Below, piece by piece: positions 42,071 to 49,573 of a stretch of 64,000 bases of DNA (its first letter is position 1; every line of letters begins with the position of its first letter). This DNA comes from Melioribacter roseus P3M-2. GTDB lineage: Bacteria > Bacteroidota > Ignavibacteria > Ignavibacteriales > Melioribacteraceae. Below the pieces are notes generated by a model. That model saw nothing but the letters and a program-made list of their open reading frames with translations, had not been told where the DNA came from and searched no databases. The translations under genes and the position numbers were made by a program. The stretch is taken from assembly GCF_000279145.1 (NCBI RefSeq), contig NC_018178.1, forward strand, positions 1 through 64,000, read 5' to 3'.

Positions 42071-43147
42071 TTATAATCTGAAATCTATTCCGCGTTTTAG
42101 TTTCGGATCGCCAACTGCGACCATGTTGTGTTTATTTGCCATATAACTGAATATTGTCAATAAAATTCCGGCAGCTAAAAGAATAAATCCGATTTCGATC
42201 CAGCCAAACACAAAACCTTCTTTTGCAAATGTAGGCATTACCATCCAGTAAAGGTCGTAATAGTGCGCAATCAGAATCACAAACGACATAACAACCAAAC
42301 GGCGCGGATCTTTTTTGGAGGGCTGCGAAAGCAGTCCGAAATACGGTATAACAAATCTTATAAATATCAATCCTATGCTTACATACTTCCAGCTTCCTTC
42401 CCACCTTTCCAGGAACCAGATAGTTTCTTCCGGTAAATTTGCGTACCAAATCAATAAGTACTGAGAAAACGCTATGTAAGCCCAGAAATTTGTAAAAGCA
42501 AACAATAGCGCCCCCAAGCTGTAATAGTTGTCGGACGAAATACCTTTGACCAGATAACCGTTTTCAGACAATAATACGATTGCAATTGTAGCGGTTGCTA
42601 ATCCCGCCAATACCGTACCCGAAAAATAATAGACGCCGAAGATAGTAGAGAACCAGTGCGGTTCAAGGCTCATCAACCAGTCAATTGCCGTAAACGTAAT
42701 CGTTATTGCAAAAAAAGGCATGAAGACGGCGGAAATCTTAGTATTAATTTTAGTTAATTGCTGGTCTTTAGTTGCATCCTGCTTGAGCGAATTCCGAGTA
42801 AGCAAGAAATAGAAGAGCCACCAGACTGCAATAAACGCCGCTACCCGTATAACGAAGAACTCGACATTGAGGTACGGAGCTTTGCTTTTAAGCAATTCAT
42901 CCATTTCAACCGCTTCCGGATGCATCCAGTGAAATATATGACCCATATTCGCCAGAACGGGCAAAGCTACAAACGGAACCACCAGAACGGATGCGGCAAT
43001 AAATTCAACTATTCTTCTGAAAGGGACGCTCCATACCGCGCCAGAAAGATATTCCGAGCCAATCAAAAACAAAGCGCCTACGCCAACGCTGATAATAAAA
43101 GTCAACAGAATAATATTATTAAACGCGCTTCTTTCGAGATCCGTCAT
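42071..43147 (-). CDS. actF: ACIII subunit ActF (NrfD-like), 5' end displaced by a frameshift
   Basis: Integral membrane subunit of alternative complex III. The ATG-started part is 358 residues with about nine to ten helices (WSVPFRRIVEFIAASVL, HIFHWMHPEAVEMDELLKSK, ITFTAIDWLMSLEPHW). The same frame stays open upstream to the actDE stop, without an ATG, and encodes a helix (AGYILLIAGIVLSVFGY) that fits ActF helix 1. An ATG overlapping the actDE stop (43269-43271, ATGA) would give a 399-residue protein if one base were dropped between 43248 and 43271. The listed start is therefore probably not the functional one. Confidence 0.85.
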   Translation of the reverse strand: MTDLERSAFNNIILLTFIISVGVGALFLIGSEYLSGAVWSVPFRRIVEFIAASVLVVPFVALPVLANMGHIFHWMHPEAVEMDELLKSKAPYLNVEFFVIRVAAFIAVWWLFYFLLTRNSLKQDATKDQQLTKINTKISAVFMPFFAITITFTAIDWLMSLEPHWFSTIFGVYYFSGTVLAGLATATIAIVLLSENGYLVKGISSDNYYSLGALLFAFTNFWAYIAFSQYLLIWYANLPEETIWFLERWEGSWKYVSIGLIFIRFVIPYFGLLSQPSKKDPRRLVVMSFVILIAHYYDLYWMVMPTFAKEGFVFGWIEIGFILLAAGILLTIFSYMANKHNMVAVGDPKLKRGIDFRL

Positions 43148-43257
43148 ATAACCGAATACCGAGAGAACAATCCCCGCAATCAGGAGAATATATCCGGCGT
43201 TAGTAACTTTAGCGGGTATATTTTTTTCTGGTAAACTATGTCCATATTTATTCCGAA

Positions 43258-43262
43258 TTTTT
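43258..43262 (-). other. Candidate one-base frameshift site at the start of actF (A5 run)
   Basis: From the ATGA-coupled start, translation reads seven codons (MSNKNSE) and stops at TAA (43248-43250). Removing one A from the A5 run joins the start to the open ActF frame and its first membrane helix. It could be a real mutation, a slippage site or a sequencing error; the sequence alone does not tell. Confidence 0.6.
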
Positions 43263-43267
43263 ATTAC

Positions 43268-44407
43268 TCATTTTAAATCGGTTTCCCTGGCGTTCAACGC
43301 CCTCTGTAAAGCTCTTACATAATTAACCACCGCCCATCTTTCTTCTTCGTTTAATTGCGTAGAATACGACGGCATGGCGTTTTGTCCTTCGGTTATAACG
43401 TGAAAGATACGACCGTCGCTCCAATTTCTTACTTTTTCGGAGTGGAGCGAGGGAGGATTAGGAAACTGACCTCTCAACCTGCTGTCGCCTTCCGCGTGAT
43501 ATCCGTGACAGGGGCTGCAATAAATATCATATTTTTTTTCGCCGAGCTTCAACACTTTCTTCGACATCGGGAGAGGGTTTATCAAATACTTGCCCGCTTC
43601 CTCGGGCATATTTTTATAAGGATAAAACTCTTCGCCTCTGGCAACGGTACCTTCTACAGGAGGTCTCATGCCGAAACCGTCTGCAAATATAGAGCTTACG
43701 GATTGAGGCGTCAGTTTATCCTGCTCCATCATCCAATTAAACGGAACCATAAACAATAATTTATTGAGCGTAAAATAAGTAGCGCCCGACGTAATAACCG
43801 CAGTCGCCAAAAGAAACATTATAAATTTCGGTTCGAGCAGTCGCGGTTTGAATGAAATTTCGTTTTCGTCATAATAAACGGGGGATATTTCTTTAGCGCG
43901 TAACGATTCCAAAAATCTCTTTACTTCTTCTTCATTAAACTTATCATCCTCGGCATGAATAAACAAACCGTACTTATCGGACGAGACTTGTTTCATGTAA
44001 TCTGTGCCGTGCAACGGATGAGCGTTGTTCGGAAGCTTAAAAAAGATAAAGAGCATGGCAAGAACGGTTGCAATCGAAGCCGACAAAACAGTTACTTCGA
44101 AAATAACGGGCACGTACGCCGGGAAAGAAAAAAGCGGTTTTCCGCCAATCACTATCGGATAGTCGACTGCGGAAATCCAGTACATCAAGAGCAGAGCAGT
44201 CAACGCTCCCGATAGTCCTACTACCAGAGCAACGTAGCCTAATTTCGACGGCGGCAGTTTCATCGCCTCCGGCATTCCGTGTATCGGATACGGCGAATGA
44301 ACGTCGTACTTTTTATATCCCGCGTCCACCGTCTTTTCGGCGGCTTCAATTATATCATCGGGATTATCGAACAAAGCGGAATAACCGTATAAAATTTTAT
44401 CTTTCAT
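43268..44407 (-). CDS. Fused ACIII subunits ActD and ActE
   Basis: A 379-residue fusion. The N-terminal half is ActD: ILYGYSALFDNPDDII, HSPYPIHGMPEAMKLP, two helices (about 55-75 and 90-112), and LPNNAHPLHGTDY. A third helix (about 192-212) leads into an ActE-like monoheme cytochrome c domain: GEEFYPYKNMPEEAG, then CSPCHG (Cys297, Cys300, His301), FPNPPSLHSEKV and a Met ligand in NAMPSYSTQL. In characterised complexes ActD and ActE are separate proteins. It lies three bases after actC. Confidence 0.9.
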   Translation of the reverse strand: MKDKILYGYSALFDNPDDIIEAAEKTVDAGYKKYDVHSPYPIHGMPEAMKLPPSKLGYVALVVGLSGALTALLLMYWISAVDYPIVIGGKPLFSFPAYVPVIFEVTVLSASIATVLAMLFIFFKLPNNAHPLHGTDYMKQVSSDKYGLFIHAEDDKFNEEEVKRFLESLRAKEISPVYYDENEISFKPRLLEPKFIMFLLATAVITSGATYFTLNKLLFMVPFNWMMEQDKLTPQSVSSIFADGFGMRPPVEGTVARGEEFYPYKNMPEEAGKYLINPLPMSKKVLKLGEKKYDIYCSPCHGYHAEGDSRLRGQFPNPPSLHSEKVRNWSDGRIFHVITEGQNAMPSYSTQLNEEERWAVVNYVRALQRALNARETDLK

Positions 44408-48826: not shown

Positions 48827-48988
48827 TTATTTTACTCTTTTTACGGCGTCTTTATGAATGTTTACTTTTATTTTGTCGTTGCTCTTGAATTTCAAAAATC
48901 TTTTGGGTAATAGAGCGGCAATGAATCCCGCCAGAGACAAAACGCCGATTGTTTCAAAAAATTTTCTTCTTTTATAAATTTTTTCCAT
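48827..48988 (-). CDS. Small single-helix membrane protein between actA and actB
   Basis: A 53-residue protein starting at the ATG at 48986-48988. A GGAG ribosome site (48994-48997) is five bases upstream, which favours this start over an upstream TTG at 49021. It has a basic N-terminus (KIYKRRKFFE), one hydrophobic helix (TIGVLSLAGFIAALLP) and a very basic C-terminus. The RRKFF before the helix resembles a Tat or membrane-anchor signal. It may be a small ACIII subunit or assembly factor. I know no family for it. Confidence 0.65.
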   Translation of the reverse strand: MEKIYKRRKFFETIGVLSLAGFIAALLPKRFLKFKSNDKIKVNIHKDAVKRVK

Positions 48989-49024
48989 CTCTTCTCCGGC
49001 TATCTGTGACAAGCAAAACAATTT

Positions 49025-49573
49025 TCAGGACCTTTTTTTTACGTCCTTCAGATACGGTAAATTTTCATGCGGACTGCGATGGCAATCGAGACACGCAGCC
49101 ATCGTAAACTGTCTGACCTGAGAAATTTTTTCCATCTGAGCCACGTCGCCATGACAGCTTTCGCATTGAATGCCTTTATTGACATGGACGCTGTGATTGA
49201 AATAAGCGTAGTCGGGCACTTTATGAATTCTCTTCCAGGGTATCGGTTTATTTTCTTCGTAATATTTGGCGAGTTTAATTATTTCGGGACTATCCTTGCG
49301 GGCGTAAGTATGACAATTCATACAGATGTTGACAGACGGAATTGCTGCTTGCCTTGACTTTTCGACGCCTACGTGACAATATTGACAATCGATAGCCATA
49401 TCGCCGGCGTGAAGTTTGTGTGAAAAATTAATCGGTTGTTCAGGCTCGTACCCGAGACCGTCCCGTTCCGGACGAGAAACGTAATAGGTAACGATAAAAG
49501 TTGAAATAATGACAAATAATGTCAGAGGCAACCGAATTTTAAGAAGATAATCCAAATAATGTTTTTTCATCAA
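49025..49573 (-). CDS. actA: ACIII multiheme cytochrome c ActA, C-terminus cut by a frameshift
   Basis: As read, 182 residues with an N-terminal anchor helix (about 14-31) and four CxxCH heme motifs at residues 63-67, 84-88, 137-141 and 161-165. Conserved neighbours include QPINFSHKLHAGD, KVPDYAYFNHSVHV and CLDCHRSPHE. Described ActA proteins carry five hemes. Right after an A8 run the +1 frame reads GPENCFACHR and stops at 49000-49002, supplying the fifth motif. Dropping one A would give a 190-residue pentaheme protein. It is the first gene of the respiratory operon. Confidence 0.93.
   Translation of the reverse strand: MMKKHYLDYLLKIRLPLTLFVIISTFIVTYYVSRPERDGLGYEPEQPINFSHKLHAGDMAIDCQYCHVGVEKSRQAAIPSVNICMNCHTYARKDSPEIIKLAKYYEENKPIPWKRIHKVPDYAYFNHSVHVNKGIQCESCHGDVAQMEKISQVRQFTMAACLDCHRSPHENLPYLKDVKKRS
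49033..49040 (-). other. A8 run: candidate slippage or frameshift site near the end of actA
   Basis: On the coding strand the sequence is GACGT followed by eight A and GGTCCTGA. In the listed frame this gives KKRS and a stop. With seven A it gives KKGPENCFACHR and a stop, restoring a fifth CxxCH. Runs of eight A are known to promote RNA polymerase slippage, but they are also a common place for sequencing errors. Confidence 0.75.

Follow-up and report, generated by a model that had tools for sequence, protein, structure and literature searches.

In Melioribacter roseus P3M-2, actF is very likely an ordinary gene for a membrane subunit of alternative complex III (ACIII), whose 5' end was thrown out of frame by a 454 undercall at a run of seven A (A7) and whose start is the ATG at 43245. 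Positions are those of the window, i.e., the whole 64,000-nucleotide stretch of DNA analyzed, and all the genes discussed are read from its minus strand. The position of the gap, the homology of the start and of the first helix, and the sequencing platform are all documented below. The loss of the A7 base itself is most likely an error of sequencing, a real mutation being the less favored reading.

The gene upstream, actDE (43268–44407), encodes a fusion of ActD (PF11821) and the cytochrome c ActE (PF13442) and terminates with TGA at 43270–43268; actF follows it in the act cluster. As the earlier note on this DNA had described, an ATG (43271–43269) overlaps this stop as ATGA, and the frame it opens (43248–43271) runs for seven codons only, M S N K N S E, before the TAA at 43250–43248. 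The actDE stop shares its reading frame with actF, whose frame is open from 43267; as also claimed earlier, it has no ATG until the annotated one (43145–43147), which is the first ATG, GTG or TTG and the 41st codon of this frame. The ORF starting there has 358 residues and lacks helix 1; the predicted peptide VTNAGYILLIAGIVLSVFGYMTDLER would span this annotated start. As assembled, actF has no continuous frame that includes a start codon ahead of helix 1, because the A7 run (43221–43227) lacks one base. Upstream of this run, two bases past the stop of the seven-codon frame, there is a further ATG (43245–43243), out of frame with the actF body (42071–43220) and preceded by GGAA at a spacing of 5 bases. 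Neither this ATG nor the A7 run figured in the earlier note, which had placed the error in an A5 run (43258–43262) located upstream of the likely start.

The closest relative is a MAG of the same genus, deposited as Melioribacter roseus and called the sister below, with an ActF of 82–84% amino-acid identity. Its actF (L031/G001) is intact, starting at the same ATG with ATGGATTTAGCTTATCAGAAAAAA, MDLAYQKKYLPTK, and has 391 codons; the counterpart in the window, ATGGACATAGTTTACCAGAAAAAAA (MDIVYQKK), lies at 43245. In three alignments the window lacked a single base at the A7 run (window CAGAAAAAA-ATATACC vs. sister CAGAAAAAATATTTACC), and this was the only frame-breaking gap in the ORF alignment, the distance from ATG to stop being 1175 nt in the window and 1176 nt in the sister. 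The idea that a single base parts the start from the body thus gained support from the sister. With one base added at A7 the protein reads MDIVYQKKNIPAKVTNAGYILL, or KKYIP at this place if the lost base was T.

Alternative N-termini were scored against a profile of 43 relatives, the null being 1738 random N-termini attached to the same body (mean 672.2 bits, s.d. 1.2, maximum 679.3). The version starting at ATG 43245 with one base added at A7 (MDIVYQKKNIP) reached 681.1 bits, as high as none of the 1738 random N-termini, while the annotated ActF from 43147 obtained 642.7 bits. The protein made by deleting one A of the A5 run (MSNKIRNKYGHSLPEKNIP) scored 674.3 bits, and 126 of the 1738 random N-termini did as well; its N-terminus is indistinguishable from random since the score falls within the null range. 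A version from ATG 43271, in which both A5 and A7 are taken as one base short, was equal to the ATG 43245 version (681.9 bits). That two frames can be joined by a change of one base is uninformative alone, as the same can be done wherever an ATG lies out of frame ahead of an open frame.

Outside the genus, 38 of the 43 relatives begin actF at the ATG overlapping the actDE TGA, which puts the ATGA overlap beyond chance. Their ActF mostly opens with MS, after which comes a conserved motif of the EYQKKELP type; in the alignment from which the fold was modeled, Y12 and K15 show a conservation of 90% or more. The uncorrected frame of the window loses the conserved tyrosine, and a start at ATG 43245 (MDIVYQKK..) restores the near-invariant Y..K motif. 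In the sister, the ATG at the ancestral ATGA position is replaced by TTA, and the pattern covering the MDIVYQKK start was present only in the two Melioribacter genomes among all loci compared. The actF start of Melioribacter is hence displaced by about 26 bases downstream of the ATGA overlap (about 24 in the sister) and has its own GGAA motif. As in other Ignavibacteria, the ATGA of the actDE stop and actF start is still present in the window; unlike there, it leads only to the seven codons, the start of the genus having moved downstream.

Judged from these sequence comparisons, the ATGA is the ancestral actF start and a relic in Melioribacter, and ATG 43245 is most likely the start in use there. 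The latter is preferred because the sister uses the matching ATG and because one error is needed instead of two. The start would accordingly be proposed to have moved downstream in Melioribacter, with the ancestral ATGA start surviving as a seven-codon relic in front of the new one. The earlier proposal of the ATGA as the actF start therefore holds for the relatives, but most likely not for Melioribacter itself. The bases between the old and the new start (43243–43271) are strongly conserved between both Melioribacter species.

The existence of a first membrane helix upstream of 43147, also proposed earlier, proved real. An AlphaFold model of the open frame, made with 24 window and locus sequences as input, had a mean pLDDT of 90.1, a pTM of 0.91 and ten long helices. 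Helix 1 comprises residues 19–42 of the open frame (43142–43213) with a block pLDDT of 97–98; residues 1–11, part of the wrong-frame stretch, were below 50. The open frame matched solved ActF chains, with E-values of 3.4e-106 for 6f0k_F (profile positions 14–394) and 3.9e-75 for 8k9e_F. Overall, the homology to ActF of alternative complex III (Rhodothermus marinus 6f0k_F; 8k9e_F, 6lod_F, 6btm_F) is near-full-length and includes helix 1, and the ten helices are shared as well; unlike in known ActF, the assembled frame has no start codon upstream of helix 1. Pfam and NCBIfam offered no useful ActF family, only a weak DUF3185 match covering helix 1 and a small-protein match below threshold.

These data support the view that the natural start is not at 43147: the segment upstream of it corresponds to ActF helix 1, is conserved in relatives and was confidently modeled, and the annotated Met is an internal residue at the end of this helix, aligned with residues that are not Met starts in relatives. 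A start at 43147 was rejected on this ground. Readthrough of the actDE TGA was set aside too, because in relatives actF has a start of its own and what precedes the conserved motif shows no match. Ten helices are reported for R. marinus ActF (PMC5928083) and nine for ActF of M. roseus, Mros0041 (PMC3534657), the latter number fitting the loss of helix 1 through the annotated start. The real ActF very probably begins 33 codons before the annotated start and has the normal ten membrane helices; the gene would start at ATG 43245 (MDIVYQKK...) and have 391 codons, with transmembrane helix 1 included.

The assembly is a single contig of 3.30 Mb with 99.94% completeness, and what has been published on M. 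roseus P3M-2 agrees with it in gene order, in the fusion of ActD with ActE and in the oxidase cluster downstream; that genome was obtained with Roche GS FLX (454) only, from about 114 Mb of reads (PMC3534657). The survey of frameshifts covered 177 orthologous ORFs with 177 kb of alignment, drawn from 864 kb of the genome and, in the sister, 756 kb, whereby reading-frame breaks were judged by eye from the listed indels. They occurred in 4 of 177 ORFs (2.3%), all at A/T runs of 6–8: in actF (A7), in actA (A8), near 771.7 kb (T6) and near 626.6 kb (T7), the sister ORFs for the last two being intact at L102 (8646–9138) and L146 (7890–8649), respectively. Several other flags of the survey were start-site differences or non-coding indels. 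Published frequencies of genes with homopolymer errors are 2.13–2.78% for 454 vs. 0.32–1.02% for Illumina, with the 454 errors biased to A/T and longer runs (PMC3277595). The observed rate fits the published 454 rate, although the numbers are small. As with 454 homopolymer errors in other finished genomes, actF differs by one base at an A/T run of seven, its relatives are intact and the assembly is 454-only, and the A7 run would thus be one base short through a 454 homopolymer undercall.

Some observations speak against an error. In the reciprocal comparison, the sister MAG had two, perhaps three, frameshifts of its own in 178 ORFs, so that the rate alone is no proof of error. Moreover, the deleted base could have been a T, the A6-T-A merging into A7, a less typical outcome for a 454 undercall. 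Two frameshifts of the sister are located at L106 near 17765 and at L145 near 8797 (A7 run, C4 run), where the genome studied here has longer intact ORFs.

The second frameshift of the operon, 5.8 kb from the first, is near the 3' end of actA, where an A8 run (49033–49040) has one base too many; at this position the stretch in the sister is shorter by one base. ActA as assembled ends with ...DVKKRS and contains four CxxCH motifs, the fifth being in the next frame within the displaced C-terminus GPENCFACHR* (49000–49032). This fifth motif is present in the sister and in 14 of 14 other relatives. The original genome paper counted four haem motifs in ActA, Mros0045 (PMC3534657), and R. marinus ActA has five haems (PMC5928083); the count of four haems published for ActA is probably artefactual. 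Between actA and actB there is also a small ORF of 53 residues (48827–48988, MEKIYKRRKFFETIGVLSLAGFIAALLP...KVNIHKDAVKRVK), with 81% identity in the sister and weak conservation in several other Ignavibacteria, apparently at the same place. Searches for it in the PDB and among curated families gave no match. It apparently falls outside the published gene numbering and possibly represents an unrecognized small ACIII-linked membrane protein.

The best-surviving alternative, albeit an unlikely one, is a real one-base deletion at A7. The gene would then be truly frameshifted, with a little ActF made by slippage or as products of downstream restarts without helix 1. Homopolymer indels arise in nature too, and two of the four frameshifts belong to one operon, which real decay could produce as well. 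In addition, the published proteomics, in the portion of the article available, names ActB, ActC and ActDE and not ActF (PMC5492636). On the other hand, the same source describes a strain that respires aerobically with an expressed ACIII (ActB, ActC and ActDE detected); actB, actC and actDE are intact and 85–96% identical to those of the sister, and the ActF body downstream of the break has no other damage. An expressed complex with intact neighboring subunits speaks against decay of actF, and the 454 platform is prone to exactly this error (PMC3277595).

Programmed -1 ribosomal frameshifting or transcriptional slippage at A7, regulating ActF from ATG 43245, is very improbable. The codons ATG GAC ATA GTT TAC CAG AAA AAA would, after a step back by one base, indeed lead into the correct ActF frame. 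However, re-pairing in the P-site after a tandem slip would be poor with CAG before the run, the sister, with A6, has a normal open frame, and no other relative examined needs a shift. A conserved slippery site with a frame break was sought in the relatives and not found, the others starting at the ATGA in frame; the absence of a frame break at the A7 site from every relative examined argues against programmed frameshifting. Similarly remote is the idea that both the A7 and the actA A8 breaks are real, with full-length ActF and five-haem ActA obtained by slippage on the A-runs and the assembly of complex III dependent on recoding. The version of the earlier note, with a start at the ATGA (43271), an extra A in the A5 run and a 399-residue ActF, is barely credible: its start is ancestral and the removal of one A does open the 399-residue frame, but the sister alignment sets the frame-breaking gap at A7, the conserved tyrosine motif is lost and the resulting N-terminus is non-homologous, so that deletion in A5 was rejected as a mend.

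With the undercall at A7 retained as the preferred explanation, the finding is mainly a correction; it is not novel, yet worth correcting. The two homopolymer breaks match two published oddities, the nine instead of ten helices of ActF and the four instead of five haems of ActA. The published proteomics search was run against the RefSeq protein set (PMC5492636); if this set holds the truncated forms, the N-terminal peptides of ActF and the C-terminal peptides of ActA would have been missed. With both frames joined, the alternative complex III of M. roseus would be ordinary in its helices and haems.
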